Below, in pieces: positions 2,065 to 19,212 of a stretch of 20,472 nt of DNA. The stretch covers positions 1 to 20,472 of IMG/VR virus record IMGVR_UViG_3300007609_000113. One strand, written 5' to 3'. Source of the stretch: a virus. A model generated the notes under the pieces. It had not been told where the DNA came from. It searched no databases and saw only the letters and a program-made list of their open reading frames with translations. A program made the translations under genes and the position numbers. How positions within the stretch are numbered: position 1 is the stretch's first letter; the number at the start of each line of letters is the position of its first letter.

Positions 2065-3291
2065 ATGGCATTATTTGACCGCTTCCGCAAAGCAGAGAAG
2101 CGCAATCTGGAAAACCCCAACTCTCCTGTGTCGGCAGAGGACTTTCTGCAAGTCATGGGCTGGGGCGAACTGACTGCGTCCGCTGGCGTTACGGTCAACA
2201 CTGATACCGCGCTTGGCGTTCCTGCGGTCTGGGCTGCGGTCAACTTTCTGAGCGGCACGCTTGCTGGCCTGCCTTTGCACGTCTACCGCAAGACATCCAA
2301 GGGTCGCCAGCGCGCGACTGGTCCGCTTGAAGGCATCCTGCATGACGTGGCGAACGACAGCATGTCGTCTTTTGAGTGGCGCAAGTACATGTTCGACCAG
2401 GTGTTCACTGGCGGACGCTGCGTTACCTACATTGAGCGGTCTGGCAACGGCGCGGTCAAGAACCTTTGGCCGCTAGATCCGCAGTACACCCGCGTTGAGC
2501 ATCGGACGCAGGATAGGCGTCAGGTTCGCGTTTATTTGCACAGGGGCCACACCTACTCTGCGTCTGAGGTGATTGACGTGCCGTTCATGCTGAAATCAAA
2601 CGGCTTGGACGTTCGCGGCCCTATCTCGACCAACCGCGATGCGATTGGAATGGCGATTGCGGCGAGCCGCTACGGGGCCAAAGCATTCCAAAGCGGTGGC
2701 ATCCCGCCTGTTGTGCTGCAAGGCCCGTTCCAGAGCGGCGCTGCGGCTGCACGCGCCTCTGACGACGTGGCCAAGACCACAGCGAAGCTGGCGCGCGAAG
2801 GTCGGCCCGTCATGGCCCTGCCAATGGGCCACGAGATGAAGCAGATCGGGTTTAACCCCGAACAAATGCAGCTTATCGAGTTGCAGCGTTTCAGTATTGA
2901 GCAGATCGCGCGCATCTACAGCCTTCCGCCTGTTTTCTTGCAGGACTTGACGCACGGGACGTTCAGCAACACCGAACAGCAGGACTTGCAGTTCGTTAAG
3001 CACACGCTGAAACGCTGGATCGAGCAGGTTGAGCAAGAAATGAACCTCAAGCTGTTCCCGCGTGGCTCCAAGCAATATGTGGAGTTTAATGTTGACGGCT
3101 TGCTGCGCGGCGACTTCAAGACGCGTATGGATGCGCACGCCACGACGATACAGAACGCAATCCGCACACCTAATGAAGTTCGGACGATTGAGAACATGCC
3201 GCCGGTGGAGGGTGGCGACAGCTTGATGGTTCAGGGCGCGACTGTTCCGATTTCTGCGCAAATGGGGACGCCAAATGCCGACACCGAATGA
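2065..3291 (+). CDS. Phage portal protein, HK97 family
   Basis: Dodecameric ring at the unique capsid vertex through which DNA enters and leaves, 408 aa. Family features are the early GVPAVWAAVNFLSGTLAGLP segment (about residues 51-70) and the late YSLPPVFLQDLTHGTFSN segment followed by EQQ (about 284-305), both strongly characteristic of HK97-type portals. The reading frame is open from a TTG at 2038, but I choose ATG 2065. It has GAGG at 2052-2055, 9 nt upstream, and gives the usual MxLF-type portal N-terminus. A GTG at 2062 is one codon away and cannot be excluded. The 3' end overlaps the protease gene by 17 nt, so the two are probably coupled. Confidence 0.93.
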   Translation: MALFDRFRKAEKRNLENPNSPVSAEDFLQVMGWGELTASAGVTVNTDTALGVPAVWAAVNFLSGTLAGLPLHVYRKTSKGRQRATGPLEGILHDVANDSMSSFEWRKYMFDQVFTGGRCVTYIERSGNGAVKNLWPLDPQYTRVEHRTQDRRQVRVYLHRGHTYSASEVIDVPFMLKSNGLDVRGPISTNRDAIGMAIAASRYGAKAFQSGGIPPVVLQGPFQSGAAAARASDDVAKTTAKLAREGRPVMALPMGHEMKQIGFNPEQMQLIELQRFSIEQIARIYSLPPVFLQDLTHGTFSNTEQQDLQFVKHTLKRWIEQVEQEMNLKLFPRGSKQYVEFNVDGLLRGDFKTRMDAHATTIQNAIRTPNEVRTIENMPPVEGGDSLMVQGATVPISAQMGTPNADTE

Positions 3292-4573
3292 GGCAATGCG
3301 CGAAGAGGCTGAACGTGGCCTTGCTTGGCGTCGTGAGTTCGGGCGCGGCGGTACAGAAGTTGGTATTGCCCGTGCGCGTGACATTTCAAACGGTGAAAAC
3401 CTAAGCATGGAAACCGTGCAGCGGATGGCCAGCTATTTTGCGCGCCACGAGGTGGACAAGGACGCCGAAGGCTTCCGGCCCGGTGAAGATGGCTATCCAA
3501 GCAACGGACGCATAGCTTGGGCGCTTTGGGGCGGTGATGCCGGGCAGTCTTGGGCCAACGCGCAACTAGAACAAGTGGACGATGAACGCAGTTCTGTGGT
3601 ATTGTCGCAACAAATGGAGGCGAACATGCAGTATCGCGCAGAACCAGACGAGCTGAGCGTTGGCGATTATGTCACTTGGGACAGCTCGGGTGGCGAAGTT
3701 TATGGCCAAGTTGAGCGCATTGTGCGTGACGGCGATATTGATGTGCCGGACACTGACTTCACAATCACCGGCACTGAGGACGATCCGGCTGCATTGATCA
3801 TGGTTTATCGTGAGGTCGAGGACGGCTGGGCACCTTCTGGAACCCGTGTCGGCCATAAGTTCAGCACGCTGACAAAGGTTTCGGCTCGTGCTTACGATGA
3901 GGACGGCAAAAAGAAGCGTCACATCAAACGCATTGAAGAAACTGAGACTGAGGTGATTGTTGTGTTTGGCAAGTCTGAAGAATACGAAGAGCCTGAGCTG
4001 GTTGAAGAGCAGGAGCGTGAGTTCCGCCCAACTAAGCGCATCGAAGTTCGCGCTGATGAAGATGGTAGCATTCGCGTTTCTGGGTATGCCGCGGTTTTTG
4101 GCGAGGAGACAAACATCGGCGGCATGTTCCGCGAGGTGATTGAGCGCGGTGCGTTTGCCAGCGCTATCCAGCGTCAGGATGATGTGGTTTTTCTGATTAA
4201 CCACGACGGCCTTCCACTCGCACGTACGCGGTCAGGTACTTTGAATTTGCGCGAGGATGATCGCGGCTTGTTTGTCGAGACCTACCTAGATGCAAGCGAC
4301 CCAGACGTGCGTAGCATTGTTCCCAAGATGAAGCGCGGAGATCTGGACAAAATGTCGTTTGCGTTTGTGCCGACGCGACAGGAATGGGATGACAGTGGCG
4401 AGATGCCACTTCGCAGCATCCGAGATTTGCAGCTTTACGATGTGTCAATCGTGACGACACCTGCGTATGAAGGCACAGAGATCGGCTTGCGTTCTCTTGA
4501 GGCGCACCGTTCCAAGAGAATGAAAACACAAGCGGCTCGCCGCCTTAGAATGAAGGCGAAGCTGCAAGAATAA
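3275..4573 (+). CDS. HK97-type prohead maturation protease with two extra N-terminal domains
   Basis: 432 aa, about twice the length of a simple HK97-type prohead protease. Residues 250-405 are the protease (family S78/U35). They hold GYAAVFGEETNIGG, then LINHD with candidate catalytic His310, and DKMSFAF with candidate Ser361. The protein cleaves the capsid scaffold-like delta domain inside the prohead. Residues 1-95 form a separate module (GRGGTEVGIARARD, RHEVDKDAEGF, GRIAWALWGGDAGQSWA) that I remember as a recurrent add-on in phage structural proteins, function unknown. Residues 122-202 form a small beta-rich, SH3/Tudor-like module (VGDYVTWDSSGG, then HKFSTLTKV). An acidic linker follows at 205-250. 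ATG 3275 lies in the portal overlap with a GGGG-rich stretch upstream. Met118 (ATG 3626) has a much better GGAGG, so a 315-aa product starting there is plausible. It directly precedes the capsid gene. Confidence 0.88.
   Translation: MPTPNEAMREEAERGLAWRREFGRGGTEVGIARARDISNGENLSMETVQRMASYFARHEVDKDAEGFRPGEDGYPSNGRIAWALWGGDAGQSWANAQLEQVDDERSSVVLSQQMEANMQYRAEPDELSVGDYVTWDSSGGEVYGQVERIVRDGDIDVPDTDFTITGTEDDPAALIMVYREVEDGWAPSGTRVGHKFSTLTKVSARAYDEDGKKKRHIKRIEETETEVIVVFGKSEEYEEPELVEEQEREFRPTKRIEVRADEDGSIRVSGYAAVFGEETNIGGMFREVIERGAFASAIQRQDDVVFLINHDGLPLARTRSGTLNLREDDRGLFVETYLDASDPDVRSIVPKMKRGDLDKMSFAFVPTRQEWDDSGEMPLRSIRDLQLYDVSIVTTPAYEGTEIGLRSLEAHRSKRMKTQAARRLRMKAKLQE
3616..3628 (+). promoter_or_regulatory. 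Internal ribosome binding site and in-frame start inside the protease gene
   Basis: GGAGG at 3616-3620 stands 5 nt before an in-frame ATG at 3626, codon 118 of the protease gene. It is as good as the sites serving the capsid gene and better than that of the annotated start at 3275. The position falls exactly at the boundary between the first N-terminal module and the Tudor-like module. It could make a shorter protease lacking the first module, or be the start of most protease molecules. Use in vivo is inferred. Confidence 0.5.
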
Positions 4574-7916: not shown

Positions 7917-8342
7917 ATGGCTAAACAACTTGGACGCGCCCTGCTGGTCAAAATCGGCGACGGCGAAGCAGCTGAAGCATTTACGAACTTGTGCGGCTTG
8001 AACAGCAAGTCGCTCACGATCAACAACTCGTCAATTGACGTGACAACGCCAGACTGCACATCACCAGAGGGCGCGCTGTGGACCGAAACGCTTGCCGGTC
8101 TTAAGAATGTAGCCCTTTCCGGCGATGGTTTTTTTGAGGACAGCACGGCAGAGGCGCGCATGAACACCGTGGCAATGTCTGCCGACAACGCTGTGAACAT
8201 GCAGATTGTCATTCCTGACTTCGGCACATATGCTGGCGGGTTCCGCATCACATCGCTTGAGTTCGGTGGCGAAACAGAAGGCGGCGTTACTTACTCTCTG
8301 TCTCTTGAGAGCAATGGCGTTATCACATTCACGGCTGCTTAA
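7917..8342 (+). CDS. Major tail tube protein (TP901-1 family)
   Basis: 141 aa, forms the stacked hexameric rings of the non-contractile tail. The N-terminus (GRALLVKIGDGE, then TNLCGLNSKSLTINN, then SIDVTTPDC) and the middle WTETLAGLKNVALSGDGFF match the TP901-1/GTA gp9 major tail protein family: K.G, L.G.....I......D.T, then W...L.G....S.SG.G.F. The C-terminal SLESNGVITFTAA is also typical. It has the strongest ribosome binding site in the window and a leader of 40 nt. The next gene starts directly after its stop. Confidence 0.92.
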   Translation: MAKQLGRALLVKIGDGEAAEAFTNLCGLNSKSLTINNSSIDVTTPDCTSPEGALWTETLAGLKNVALSGDGFFEDSTAEARMNTVAMSADNAVNMQIVIPDFGTYAGGFRITSLEFGGETEGGVTYSLSLESNGVITFTAA

Positions 8343-8729
8343 ATGAGCATTACGGCTGAAGCGCCGCGCGGGGGTGTCGTCGAATATATCGGTGACACCT
8401 CCTACACGTTCCGCCTGCGCAATCGTGAGATCGAGCGGTTTGAGGACAAGTATCGCGGCATATTTGAACTGTGGGACGGCTTCTTTGGCCGTGGGACCAA
8501 GCCTTCAAGCTCCGAGTTGCGCGACCTGCTGGCGTTGGCGTTGGTTGGTGGCGGCATGAAGGATCACGAGGCAGACGAAATAATGGCCAAGTGTTCGCCT
8601 GCTGACTTGATGCGACTTTTTAAGATCGGGCAGGCCGTTTTGGGCGTGGCATTTATGCCTGATGCTGCTGAGGCGGCTGAGGCGGCTGATGTAAAAAAAA
8701 ACAATCAGGACCAGCCCCTAGAAGACTGA
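8343..8729 (+). CDS. Tail assembly chaperone, GTA gp10-like (short form)
   Basis: 128 aa in frame 0. The N-terminal 105 residues (FRLRNREIERFEDKY, GIFELWD, SSELRDLLALAL, MKDHEADEI, LFKIGQAVLGVAF) match GTA-type gp10 chaperones encoded between tube and tape measure. Such chaperones keep tape-measure and tube subunits assembly-competent and are not part of the virion. After residue 105 comes an Ala/Glu stretch and then VKKNNQDQPLED, unlike a folded end. Nine A residues at 8693-8701 set up a -1 frameshift that yields a longer 192-residue product. There is no spacer or clear ribosome binding site after the tube stop, so it is probably coupled to the tube gene. Confidence 0.85.
   Translation: MSITAEAPRGGVVEYIGDTSYTFRLRNREIERFEDKYRGIFELWDGFFGRGTKPSSSELRDLLALALVGGGMKDHEADEIMAKCSPADLMRLFKIGQAVLGVAFMPDAAEAAEAADVKKNNQDQPLED
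8693..8702 (+). promoter_or_regulatory. Programmed -1 ribosomal frameshift site
   Basis: The frame-0 codons read GTA AAA AAA AAC. This gives the canonical slippery heptamer A AAA AAC at 8696-8702, and A AAA AAA at 8693-8699. A -1 slip leads into an open frame from 8702 to 8917, closed by TAG at 8918-8920. A Shine-Dalgarno-like GAGG at 8679-8682 ends 10 nt before the A-run, the arrangement that stimulates dnaX-type slippage. No clear downstream pseudoknot was found by eye. Confidence 0.8.
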
Positions 8730-8920
8730 ATGTCCGGTCGATGATTAAGAACGGGATTGTTGCGGGGTTAAAACCTGACGAGATCCGTGATATGGTTCCG
8801 AAAGATACATGGCTTGTGTTTGAGGGGTGGTCTGATGCACACTCCCCAAAGAAGGCAGGCTCAGAGGCCATGACGGCTGAACAATATCGTGAACTTGTGG
8901 AGCGGGTCGATGGCAATTAG
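8702..8920 (+). CDS. Frameshifted C-terminal extension of the tail assembly chaperone (GTA gp10.1-like position)
   Basis: Read in the -1 frame after the slippery site, this adds 72 residues to the chaperone, about 192 aa in total. The core reads NGIVAGLKPDEIRDMVPKD and then TWLVFEGWSDAH, and the extension ends ELVERVDGN. Position and size equal the lambda G-T type extension and the separate GTA gp10.1 gene. In siphophages the long form is thought to bind the tape measure and recruit tube subunits. Independent initiation at ATG 8741 would give 59 aa, but no ribosome binding site precedes it and the upstream -1 frame is free of stops. The end overlaps the tape-measure start by 11 nt. Confidence 0.78.
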   Translation, partial: QSGPAPRRLNVRSMIKNGIVAGLKPDEIRDMVPKDTWLVFEGWSDAHSPKKAGSEAMTAEQYRELVERVDGN

Positions 8921-10844
8921 TGCGGAACAGCTTAACATCATCCTGAACGCTCGTGACAAAGAGTTCACGAAGGCGATGGATCGCAATCAAAAGCGCATTG
9001 AGCGTTTCGCAAAGCAATCCCAGAAGAGTTTGTCTGCCTCAGCCAGGTCTTTTGACATGATCGGGGCTGCGGCCAAGCGCATTGCGCCGCTTTTGGCTGC
9101 GTCTTTCAGCGTATCGGCCATTCAAGGCATGGTGAACACCACCGCCGAGATCGGTGTGATGGCGGACATTGCAGGGGTGTCTGCGGAGAAGTTTCAAGAG
9201 CTTTCTTTCGCTGCGTCAAACTTCGGCATTCAACAAGAAAAAATGTCAGACATCCTGAAGGATGTGAACGACAAGTTTGGCGACTACGTTCAAACGGGCG
9301 CTGGGCCGCTTGCTGATTTTTTTGACAACATCGCGCCAAAGGTCGGATTGACTGCGGATGCTTTTGCAGACCTTTCGTCGGATCAGAAGCTGGGCCGGTA
9401 CATCTCTGCGCTTGAGGCTGCAAATCTTTCTCAGTCTGAGATGACTTTCTTTTTGGAGGCGTTGGCAAGCGATGCGACTGCGCTTCAGGGCGTGTTTGCA
9501 AACAACGGCGCGGAGCTTGACAGGTTCTCTCAGAAGCTGCGCGATGCGGGCGGCGTTATGAGCAATGAGCTGATTGCAGAGGCCCGCACGGCGAAAGAGG
9601 AGCTTAACGCGGCGGCCACCATCATAAAGGCCAACCTGACAGTTGCTTTCGCGGAACTGATACCGCTTATCGCTGCTGGCGCGGAGGGCTTTGCGAACCT
9701 TGTCACAAACATTGCGACGGCGATCGATGCAGTTCAGGACTTTCTAGATCCGCAGAGTGAGCTTGAGACGTCTATCGACAATGTGGTTTTGGCTATGGGT
9801 GACGAGATAGACCAGTCAAAGCAGCTTGACGTCGCGCTAGGTAGAAGCACAGAGGTTTCCGTTTCCGCAGCAAAGGAAAAGCTAAAAGAGGCCATGGCGC
9901 GCCACGAGAACGCAAAGGCTGCTCTGGCCGAGCGCAAGGCCATAATGTCAAGCCTTGAGGCACAAATCAGCGACATGCGGGCCAGAGGCGAGGGGAGCGG
10001 TCGCAGCGCGAGAGGCTCTCGACTTGGCGCGGACAGATTGCAAAACCGTCTGGAAGAAATGCGCGAGGGGAGCAGCGATATTGACGCGCAGTTCAGCAGA
10101 ACGCAGGAAAATGTTTCTCGACTTGAGGAGGCTATTGCAAACGCTAGTGATGGGTTGGTTACGTTCGGTGAATCCTCTGCTGAGGCGATAACGCCAACTG
10201 AGCGACTTTCAGGCACAGTCTCAAGGGTCCGAACTGAAACTCAGGGTCTTGTTGATAGCTTGGTTGATGCAGCGCCTGCCATCGAAACCTTGGGCCTCAA
10301 TGCTGATCAGCTAGGCGGCATCATGTCAAACGTCGAAAGCAGCATGGAAAGCGCCTTCATGTCTATGATTGACGGAACTGAGTCAGCCAAAGGTGCATTT
10401 AAGTCTATGGCATCTGAAATCATTAAGGAGCTTTACCGCGTTCTTGTCGTGCAAAGGCTGGTAAGCGCCATAACGGGTGCTTTTGGCGGCCCAGGCATGA
10501 CAACTGGAACGCCATTGCAGGTTCCGTCGGGTAGCGGCGCGTCCTTGCTTCCGCCTAGCTTTTCTGGCGGCGGCTACACCGGCAATAGAGCGCGGGCAGG
10601 TGGCTTGGACGGCAAAGGCGGCTTCATGGCCATGATGCACCCGCGAGAGAGTGTGATTGACCACACCAAGGGGCAGAGCGCAGGCGGCGTCGTGGTAAAC
10701 CAGACGATCAACGTCAGCACTGGCGTACAGCAAACTGTACGCACAGAAATCAAGTCGCTCATGCCGCAGATCGCAGAGAGCGCCAAGAGTGCCGTTGTGG
10801 ACGCCAAGCGGCGCGGCGGCAGTTATGGAAGGTCTTTTGCATAA
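8910..10844 (+). CDS. Tail tape measure protein (GTA gp11 / lambda gpH-like C-terminus)
   Basis: 644 aa; sets tail length and passes into the host envelope during DNA entry. Parts: a charged N-terminal helix (1-50), a hydrophobic stretch about 52-74, a helical body with VMADIAGVSAEKFQELSF at 83-100, a second hydrophobic stretch about 247-275, a long coiled coil about 312-412, then IDGTESAKGAFKSMASEII at 487-505. That last segment and the GGYTG with HPRESVID near 554-584 are typical of lambda gpH-type C-termini. At roughly 0.15 nm per residue the tail would be near 95 nm. The frame is open from a GTG at 8889, but ATG 8910 has GGAG at 8899-8902, 7 nt away, and gives the familiar N-terminus. Confidence 0.93.
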   Translation: MAISAEQLNIILNARDKEFTKAMDRNQKRIERFAKQSQKSLSASARSFDMIGAAAKRIAPLLAASFSVSAIQGMVNTTAEIGVMADIAGVSAEKFQELSFAASNFGIQQEKMSDILKDVNDKFGDYVQTGAGPLADFFDNIAPKVGLTADAFADLSSDQKLGRYISALEAANLSQSEMTFFLEALASDATALQGVFANNGAELDRFSQKLRDAGGVMSNELIAEARTAKEELNAAATIIKANLTVAFAELIPLIAAGAEGFANLVTNIATAIDAVQDFLDPQSELETSIDNVVLAMGDEIDQSKQLDVALGRSTEVSVSAAKEKLKEAMARHENAKAALAERKAIMSSLEAQISDMRARGEGSGRSARGSRLGADRLQNRLEEMREGSSDIDAQFSRTQENVSRLEEAIANASDGLVTFGESSAEAITPTERLSGTVSRVRTETQGLVDSLVDAAPAIETLGLNADQLGGIMSNVESSMESAFMSMIDGTESAKGAFKSMASEIIKELYRVLVVQRLVSAITGAFGGPGMTTGTPLQVPSGSGASLLPPSFSGGGYTGNRARAGGLDGKGGFMAMMHPRESVIDHTKGQSAGGVVVNQTINVSTGVQQTVRTEIKSLMPQIAESAKSAVVDAKRRGGSYGRSFA

Positions 10845-16520: not shown

Positions 16521-17804
16521 ATGACCAAGCTAGTCAACCGCGCAAAGATGACCACGGCCACAACTGGCACAGGCACCATCAGCTTGTCTGGTGCGGTTGA
16601 CGGGTATCAGACCTTCGCAGATGCTGGCGTGGCTGACGGGGACGTGGTGCGCTACGTCATTGAAGATGGCAGCGATTGGGAGATTGGGACAGGCACCTAC
16701 ACGGCCTCTGGCACGACCCTGACGCGCACGGTGCTTGAGAGTTCCAATGCTGACGCTGCCTTGAACCTGACGGGCAGTGCGGTGGTGTATGTGTCGGCTG
16801 CGGCTGAGGATATTCCTGCGGTTCAGGAGTTGTATGCTGAGAACCCGTCTAGCCCTACTGCGCCTTCTGCTACTGGCACTAATGCTGTGGCTATTGGGAC
16901 GCAAGCAGAAGCAAATGGATCGGGGTCAGTCTCCATTGGAATTGACGCAACTGGAACCACCACGAACAGCCTTGCTATTGGCAACTATACCGACGCAATA
17001 GGCAACACAGGTGCGACCGCCATTGGCTTTTCCGCCCAAGCGAATGGCCTTAATGCAATGGCCCTTCAAAGATCATACGCCTCTGGCACAGACAGCTTCG
17101 CCGCATCTATAGCCAACAACACCTCTAGCTATGGCGCTACTGGCGCTAACTCTGTGGCGATTGGGTATCAGGCGAAGGCTATAGGCCAAAACTCAATGGC
17201 TTTAGGGGGAACATCAAATAATGCGAGTGGTCTTTTCAGTTCTGCTATAGGCCCAAGTTCAAACATATCCTCTGGCACATTTTCCGTTGCCATTGGGGAT
17301 GCTTGCGAAGCCACCACAAACAACGCCTTTGCTCTCGGGCACGATGGCAAGTCTGTTATTCAAGGCAAGCTAGCTTATGGGTCTGGTAAGTTTAGTACGG
17401 TAAGTGACGCACAGAGTGGGATGTTTGTTCTTCGACGGGCAACCACAGACGCCACTCCAACAGACCTTACTACAAACAACGGAGCGGCATCAACCACCAA
17501 CCAAGTCATCCTGCCCAACAACTCGGCTTACGCCTTTCACGGCACGATCGTGGCCCGTCAGCAAGCCTCCCAAGGCACTGCATGTGCAGCATGGAAGATT
17601 GAAGGCTTGATCCGCAGGGAAGGCTCGGCGGGGACGACAGTGCTGGTAAACTCTGCTACAACTGTGCTGGACAATACTCCCGGCTGGGGTATGGCACTGA
17701 GCGCAGACACGACCAACGGCGGCCTGAAGATTGAAGTGACGGGGGCTGCGGCCACGAATATCCGGTTCGTGGCTACAATACATACCAGCGAGGTAACATA
17801 CTAA
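16521..17804 (+). CDS. Tail fibre with YadA-head-like repeats
   Basis: 427 aa. Residues 1-100 form a fibre N-terminal domain common in marine phages (FADAGVADGDVVRYVIEDG, then EIGTGTYTASGTTLTRTVLE). Residues 119-275 hold repeats of the trimeric-autotransporter head type, with AIG or its variants at NAVAIG (121-126), SVSIG, SLAIG, TAIGFSAQANGLNAMAL, SVAIGYQAKAIGQNSMALG, SAIG, SVAIG and FALG. In YadA such repeats form a left-handed trimeric beta-roll. Residues 296-427 form a beta-rich C-terminal domain (AYAFHGTIVARQ, WKIEGLIRREG, RFVATIHTSEVTY), probably the tip. Start ATG 16521 has AAGG 8 nt upstream. Its stop overlaps the next ATG. A trimeric receptor-binding fibre is inferred. Confidence 0.83.
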   Translation: MTKLVNRAKMTTATTGTGTISLSGAVDGYQTFADAGVADGDVVRYVIEDGSDWEIGTGTYTASGTTLTRTVLESSNADAALNLTGSAVVYVSAAAEDIPAVQELYAENPSSPTAPSATGTNAVAIGTQAEANGSGSVSIGIDATGTTTNSLAIGNYTDAIGNTGATAIGFSAQANGLNAMALQRSYASGTDSFAASIANNTSSYGATGANSVAIGYQAKAIGQNSMALGGTSNNASGLFSSAIGPSSNISSGTFSVAIGDACEATTNNAFALGHDGKSVIQGKLAYGSGKFSTVSDAQSGMFVLRRATTDATPTDLTTNNGAASTTNQVILPNNSAYAFHGTIVARQQASQGTACAAWKIEGLIRREGSAGTTVLVNSATTVLDNTPGWGMALSADTTNGGLKIEVTGAAATNIRFVATIHTSEVTY

Positions 17805-18117: not shown

Positions 18118-19212
18118 ATGCTTGGCTTTTCCCCATTAGCTTCTGCGCCCCTCGCGGATGATGGGGCTGTAGCCGAAGTTGTCTACCTTCTGAATGGTGA
18201 CGACATTACCACAGGCCAGCCTACGGTTGGTGCGTCTGACCTTGCACAAGAGCATAATCTTGCTCCTGTTGCCATCACTACGGGTCAGCCGACTGTTGGC
18301 GACAGCACTGTTGCTCAAGAGCATGACCTAACGCTTGCAGCTATTACTACAGGTCAACCTACTCTGGGAGCCTCTACGCTGGCTCAAGAGCATGACCTTG
18401 CCCCCGTAGGTATCACGACCGGTCAGCCAGCGATTGACGCCTCCAGCATTGCTCAAGAACACGACCTTGCGCCTGTCGGCATCACAACGGGCGCACCAAC
18501 GCTGGATGCTGCAACGGTTCAAGAAACGACCTTCATCAGCGCAGAGCCTGTCACAGCGGGCCAGCCTATTCTGGGCGCATCTACCATTGCCCAAGATCAC
18601 GATCTTGCGCTTACGGGCATCACCACCGGAAGCCCGGCTGTCCCCGGCATCACAATGTCGGAAGACGAGACGTTCAATGCGGATCCGATTGCGTCTGGCA
18701 TCCCTTCTGTTGGCTCTTCTGATCTGGCACAAATTCACCAGATCGCGCCGAATGGCATAGCGACAGGACAGCCTGTTGTTGGCCCGTCGGTCATCGACCA
18801 AGTGCACGACCTTGTGGCCGCTAACATCGCCACAGAGCCGCCTACAGTGGGTTCTCCTGTCATGGTGGTGGAGAGTGTCCTGGATGGTGACAGCATCACC
18901 ACAGGCCAGCCTAGCGTCTCTCAGGGGGCTATTGAGCAAGAGCACAGCCTGACAGGAACCAGCGTTGAGGCTGGCGCGCCTGTCGTGCAGCCTTCCACAA
19001 TGGTCGTCACGTTCATTCTGGCGGGAAGCGACATCACAACGGGCCAGCCTATCGTCGGCCCTCTTTTCCTCAACGCCAGCCGTCGGCGGGAGGTTCACGT
19101 TTCTGATCCATCAAACAACGTGGCGCTCGTGACTATCGGCGCAAATGCGTGTATTGTGTCGGAAATTACACCCAACAGCGTGTTGGTGTCTGAAGCGAAC
19201 GAGGCCGCATAA
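18118..19212 (+). CDS. Repeat-built phage appendage protein (twelve 23-residue repeats)
   Basis: 364 aa. Residues 1-29 form a leader ending VVYLLNGDD, which looks like the end of a repeat unit. Residues 30-305 are twelve consecutive units of exactly 23 residues, consensus ITTGQPTVGASTLAQEHDL plus four variable residues. A thirteenth, partial unit starts at 306. The G.P turn and the alternating hydrophobic pattern suggest a regular beta solenoid or stacked strands. Residues 320-364 (REVHVSDPSNNVALVTIG, then VSEITPNSVLVSEANE) are a distinct C-terminal beta module. Low charge, no Cys, no signal peptide. I recall related GAPVLG-type repeats in phages of alphaproteobacteria. The location among fibres suggests a virion fibre or whisker; no enzymatic motif. 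GAGG precedes the ATG. Confidence 0.8.
   Translation: MLGFSPLASAPLADDGAVAEVVYLLNGDDITTGQPTVGASDLAQEHNLAPVAITTGQPTVGDSTVAQEHDLTLAAITTGQPTLGASTLAQEHDLAPVGITTGQPAIDASSIAQEHDLAPVGITTGAPTLDAATVQETTFISAEPVTAGQPILGASTIAQDHDLALTGITTGSPAVPGITMSEDETFNADPIASGIPSVGSSDLAQIHQIAPNGIATGQPVVGPSVIDQVHDLVAANIATEPPTVGSPVMVVESVLDGDSITTGQPSVSQGAIEQEHSLTGTSVEAGAPVVQPSTMVVTFILAGSDITTGQPIVGPLFLNASRRREVHVSDPSNNVALVTIGANACIVSEITPNSVLVSEANEAA
18205..19032 (+). repeat. Twelve in-frame 69-bp degenerate tandem repeats
   Basis: Unit starts fall every 69 bp from 18205 (ATT of ITTGQP) to the end of unit 12 at 19032; unit 13 starts at 19033 and breaks off. Spacing is exact throughout, but DNA identity is low outside a core like ACAGGCCAGCCT (units 1, 11) or ACGGGTCAGCC (unit 2). 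Selection therefore acts on the protein register, and recent duplication is unlikely except between units 1-4. It is not a CRISPR array: there are no spacers and it is coding. Confidence 0.9.

Follow-up and report, generated by a model that had tools for sequence, protein, structure and literature searches.

The locus described here raises the question of how a second open reading frame, T, which overlaps the end of the small tail gene G in the -1 frame, comes to be translated, and, if a slip on a run of nine adenines (A9) is responsible, whether RNA polymerase or the ribosome makes the slip. The window, by which we mean the whole stretch of DNA analysed, is a 20,472-bp virus contig of IMG/VR, and the host of the virus appears to be a marine Rhodobacter-type bacterium. 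An earlier note, made from the letters of the window, had read the locus as a programmed -1 frameshift that joins a chaperone resembling GTA gp10 to a hidden extension with the help of a dnaX-like stimulator. Recoding of the G/G-T kind is generally taken to be ribosomal, and such frameshifts have reportedly been described for lambda G/G-T and related phage tail chaperones (Levin 1993; Xu 2004; review PMC5009743).

Collection of relatives

Close relatives were collected by scanning viral contigs; 80 loci were obtained with G and 56 with T, and 75 distinct fused sequences were available. Viral contigs and Rhodobacterales genomes supplied the more divergent relatives, and sequences less than 85% alike were used as representatives. 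A search of 385 genomes from the wider class recovered only the starting genome. One phage contig of the G/G-T family (L137) lies inside a record titled as a Euryarchaeota MAG (PBTA01000007.1), which is probably mis-binned.

Organization of the cassette

G and T are placed between the genes of the tail tube and tape measure proteins (Table 1), which is the usual position of phage G/G-T, and a small open reading frame, an overlapping -1 frame and an in-phase heptamer, the further marks of a lambda-type cassette, are all present. In the 0 frame the sequence reads GTA (8691) AAA AAA AAC, with the C at 8702 directly after A9. Direct reading agrees with the earlier note on the coordinates of A AAA AAC and on its phase for a -1 slip, as well as on the 72 codons of the open -1 frame, its TAG and a product of about 192 residues (120 + 72 = 192); the other in-phase heptamer, A AAA AAA, had been missed. 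The two copies of GCTGAGGCG (8667-8675 and 8676-8684) were likewise read as claimed, and the second GAGG indeed ends 10 nt before the A-run, that is, 13 nt before A AAA AAC. A9 is the sole homopolymer of eight or more in the 20.5-kb window, and in a shuffled window one would expect 0.16 runs of A9+/T9+.

From this layout we infer that both products would be made. Most expression would end at the stop codon of G (8727-8729) and give G of 128 aa, and a minority would be read one base back at A9 and give G-T of 192 aa. The -1 reading could be reached by RNA polymerase adding one A, which would give an mRNA with A10, or by the ribosome slipping on A AAA AAA / A AAA AAC. By analogy with lambda, G would coat the tape measure protein, and recruitment of the tail tube protein would fall to the T part.

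Table 1. Positions of the features of the G/G-T cassette in the window
Feature	Position	Strand	Basis
Major tail (tube) protein, immediately 5' of G	7917..8342	+	PF06199, E=7.3e-29; phrog_1407
G, 128-aa putative tail assembly chaperone, GTA-gp10 family	8343..8729	+	PF11836, E=6.9e-8
Tandem GCTGAGGCG with SD-like GAGG (8670-8673, 8679-8682), possible non-conserved stimulator	8667..8684	+	direct sequence
A9 slip run	8693..8701	+	read directly; exactly A9 in 75/75 distinct close relatives
In-phase heptamer A AAA AAA	8693..8699	+	direct sequence
In-phase heptamer A AAA AAC	8696..8702	+	direct sequence; mostly A AAA AAG in close relatives
T, 72-codon -1-frame extension with TAG (8918-8920), g10.1/Phage_TAC_6-like domain	8702..8920	+	hhalign against GTA g10.1
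-1-frame ATG, possible non-conserved independent start of T	8741..8743	+	17/75 relatives without ATG
Tape measure protein, ATG at 8910 overlapping the end of T	8910..10844	+	phrog_2854, E=5.5e-65

Three other features of the window were recorded. A 364-aa protein (18118-19209) carries repeats of about 24 residues (ITTGQPTVGxSxxAQEHDLxP) and has no Pfam family above cut-off, a 427-aa protein of the tail region (16521-17801) has YadA head repeats (PF05658, E=4.8e-22), and the Prohead protease (3275-4570, PF04586) has a long extra N-terminal half which includes a TUDOR-like PF11160 match.

Family membership of G and T

The resemblance of G to GTA gp10, proposed in the earlier note, was confirmed by the match to PF11836 (Phage_TAC_11), whose 32.9 bits lie above the curated cut-off of 27.8. 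For T of the window alone, no match to PF09550 was obtained at E up to 1 (Pfam), nothing significant was found in Pfam/PHROG, and a direct search in the phages collection gave no match. T of one relative (L140) matches PF09550 (Phage_TAC_6) above the cut-off (1.3e-5), T of another (L154) nearly reaches it, and a profile comparison by hhalign between T and g10.1 of ten GTA-like clusters gave 94.8% (E=5.4e-8). When PF09550 was searched in 11 Rhodobacterales genomes with a G relative, eleven matches exceeded the cut-off, and the only two matches below it were located directly downstream of phage G genes. Since the direct profile match failed and the homology came through relatives, T is termed related to the PF09550/g10.1 family and not a direct member of it. 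T is conserved, and its length is 72-78 aa in nearly all relatives.

Conservation of the -1 frame

Of 213 distinct related loci, 208 have T in the -1 frame of G, as do 103 of 105 representatives, and a canonical slippery heptamer is in phase in 102 of these 103. The most divergent relative (L149 reverse strand / L360) has T in the -1 frame without a canonical heptamer, G GAA AAG being its candidate slip site. Among the 75 close relatives, the first codon of the slip site is GTA, TCA, GCA, ATA, TTA or ACA, codons that specify different amino acids and without exception end in A. At the equivalent of 8696-8702, the last codon is AAG in 68 and AAC in 6 of the first 74 distinct relatives. An alignment of homologues, which the earlier note had proposed as a check, speaks for the -1 frame: residues 8-12 of T (R8 L9 N10 V11 R12) are under purifying selection as protein, with third codon positions free. 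We regard G/G-T recoding at the A9 run as highly probable.

T might instead be a separate small protein that starts from ATG 8741 and is coupled to the stop codon of G, in the manner of GTA g10.1. The ATG begins 12 nt past that stop in the window, and 58 of 75 relatives also have an ATG there. In those GTA clusters that were examined, g10 and g10.1 are two genes, as the earlier note had stated for the Rhodobacter GTA, and the start of g10.1 overlaps the stop of g10; ATGA is the usual form of this overlap, and, unlike in the window, no slip site is obvious. However, no ATG is found before the T core in 17 of the 75 relatives and no ATG, GTG or TTG in 14, the conserved RLNVR stretch precedes the sole ATG (residue 14), conservation extends to the slip site, and the two domains are fused in frame in Rhodobacter phage RcapNL. 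Because residues 5' of the ATG are conserved and relatives without a start codon exist, independent initiation of T is not a general explanation, and we hold it to be very improbable. The earlier note had denied the -1 frame its own ribosome binding site, which needs correcting: an ATG is present at this place, but it is not conserved. Still less weight, close to none, is given to a single gene split by a sequencing or assembly error, or to an overlap by chance. Homopolymers are error-prone, and both L108 (A10) and RcapNL (A7) are read through in frame, but the same -1 layout recurs in the 208 loci, drawn from many data sets, and appears also where there is no long homopolymer (G GGA AAG); as a general account, error or chance is refuted.

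Two loci (L038 and L081) have A8 with T in the third frame, and L108 has its T in frame with G after A10; close relatives of the three have A9, and these run lengths are probably homopolymer errors or broken copies. Gene 16 of RcapNL (L136:3001-3573) contains the same G and T domains at the same place as the window; unlike the window, they form one 190-aa ORF, with A7 at the site. Since RcapNL adjoins the A9 relative L197 in the tree (support 100/99), its A7 looks like A9 minus two; either the fusion is hard-wired or the record carries a homopolymer error of two bases. Annotation readily overlooks the T domain, gene 16 being annotated only as a hypothetical protein.

Site classes and the slipping enzyme

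The slip sites of the 103 representatives were classified as A9 (81), A10 (5), A8 (0), A7 (6), A6 (8), G GGA AAG (2) and none (1). The A9 runs start at the third codon position in 42 cases, at the first in 33 and at the second in 6, and A9 is thus held as such, independently of codon phase, which is the pattern of transcriptional slippage on A9 of the T. thermophilus dnaX type. A6 sites are always in the A AAA AAG phase and followed by G; the same applies to five of the six A7 sites, the sixth being A AAA AAA. Changes of site class number at least 29 on the tree, which is poorly resolved, and the short sites (A6G, A7G and G GGA AAG) are drawn from few lineages. At the phase 1 A9/A10 sites, the fourth codon starts with A in nine of nine (AGC, AAC, AAT, ACG; background 0.15), these nine representing perhaps five or six independent lineages.

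Since the length of A9 is fixed across codon phases, the sequences suggest that slippage by RNA polymerase is an equal or better candidate than a ribosomal slip at A9. According to PMC1088944, selection against slippage becomes visible in many bacteria at a run length of nine, and T. thermophilus dnaX has A9 as its site; frameshifting at E. coli dnaX is ribosomal (PMC1088944; PMC3711429). For E. coli RNA polymerase, the data on slippage in PMC6260861 make insertions about three times commoner than deletions, and this insertion bias fits the -1 frame. We give polymerase slippage about an even chance of being the principal route at A9; a principal role of the ribosome is possible and rather doubtful, and comparable shares of the two enzymes are unlikely.

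A purely ribosomal -1 frameshift on the tandem A AAA AAA / A AAA AAC, aided by the GAGG that precedes the run in the window, deserves serious consideration, at a probability appreciably short of even. The canonical heptamers in nearly all representatives favour it. A ribosomal slip is possible at every A9 site, because nine adenines in a row necessarily include A AAA AAA in phase, and in phase 0 A9 is the minimum length for this heptamer, which counts against polymerase slippage. Six genomes of the host group yielded tRNA-Lys(UUU) alone, as in E. coli, whose ribosomes slide along lysine-encoding A stretches according to PMC4363877. In some relatives A9 is replaced by A AAA AAG or G GGA AAG, and because polymerase slippage is hardly possible at the G GGA AAG or A6G sites, those relatives probably use ribosomal -1 frameshifting. 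On the other hand, the ribosome leaves three observations unexplained: the heptamer does not predict the absence of A8, since A8G would still contain A AAA AAG, it does not account for the ninth A of the phase 1 sites, since no in-phase heptamer needs the A with which the fourth codon starts, and it does not explain why A9 sites lack the stable downstream folds of the short sites (see below). As for the programmed -1 frameshift of the earlier note, the conserved G/G-T recoding cassette stands, whereas the ribosomal slip is a plausible candidate. The sole pattern match for tRNA-Lys(CUU), in G001, was judged not to be a tRNA.

Stimulators

The ribosomal reading is also weakened by the stimulators. 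The SD-like motif is present in 42 of 75 close relatives, against 34.1 +/- 3.4 expected; in the larger set, the anti-SD energy of the A9 class has no excess over synonymous recoding (z +0.34), and the energy in the window (-7.6) is good, yet its z against synonymous recoding is -0.85. Because there is no such excess, the SD was rejected as a conserved general stimulator, conservation of the motif being no more than codon expectation. The GCTGAGGCG repeat was not seen among the listed sites of relatives. No consensus structure was found downstream of the A9 sites, and in the window itself the sequence after the run folds in an unremarkable way (z=-0.96). The pair of a conserved upstream SD and a downstream hairpin, as in E. 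coli dnaX, is accordingly absent from the A9 class; the dnaX-like stimulator of the earlier note is possible in the window and is not a feature of that class.

The short sites are different in their downstream structure. In 35-nt folds, one of several window lengths tried, the mean z was -2.04 for short sites, -0.53 for all A9 sites and -0.13 for GC-matched A9 sites. In nearest-relative pairs, for which the mapping of tree to names was confirmed by sequence in 95 of 105 rows, the short site had the lower fold in 14 of 16 at 35 nt (p=0.0003), and the contrast was not significant with a 45-nt window (p=0.56). The anti-SD contrast between short and A9 sites was not significant with the synonymous-recoding null (p=0.07-0.10).

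Comparison with known systems

Recoding of tail assembly chaperones is classical (PMC5009743), and the present cassette is firmly of the lambda G/G-T kind. It shares with lambda the place between tube and tape measure genes, the small upstream protein, the overlapping T in the -1 frame and a slippery site near the end of G, and the lambda heptamer G GGA AAG is used by the two relatives of that class. It differs from lambda in that its families are of the GTA gp10/g10.1 type and its most frequent site is a run of exactly nine A's that lacks conserved stimulators. The GTA of Rhodobacterales is alike in the PF11836 match of G and in the relation of T to g10.1. As in dnaX of T. thermophilus and E. 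coli, some homologues have A9 without structure and others A AAA AAG or a similar site followed by a hairpin; unlike in dnaX, recoding here would lengthen the protein, and RNA-level slippage is what we infer for the present family. An incomplete, term-based literature search found no paper describing polymerase slippage for tail chaperones, and there is possibly a case for a mechanism that is new among such cassettes.

Significance for the phage family

With a likelihood just under even, we propose that in this family of Rhodobacterales phages the ratio of G to G-T is set mainly by polymerase slippage on A9, and that lineages which lose A9 switch to ribosomal heptamers with hairpins. Because the same fusion seems to be attained through A9, in any codon phase and with no stimulator, or through short heptamers with hairpins, slippage by polymerase and by ribosome could be compared in one gene, and such a family would show how a recoding site switches its mechanism. 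If true, phage tail chaperones would have their own counterpart of the two dnaX solutions, and the switch would have occurred repeatedly within one family.
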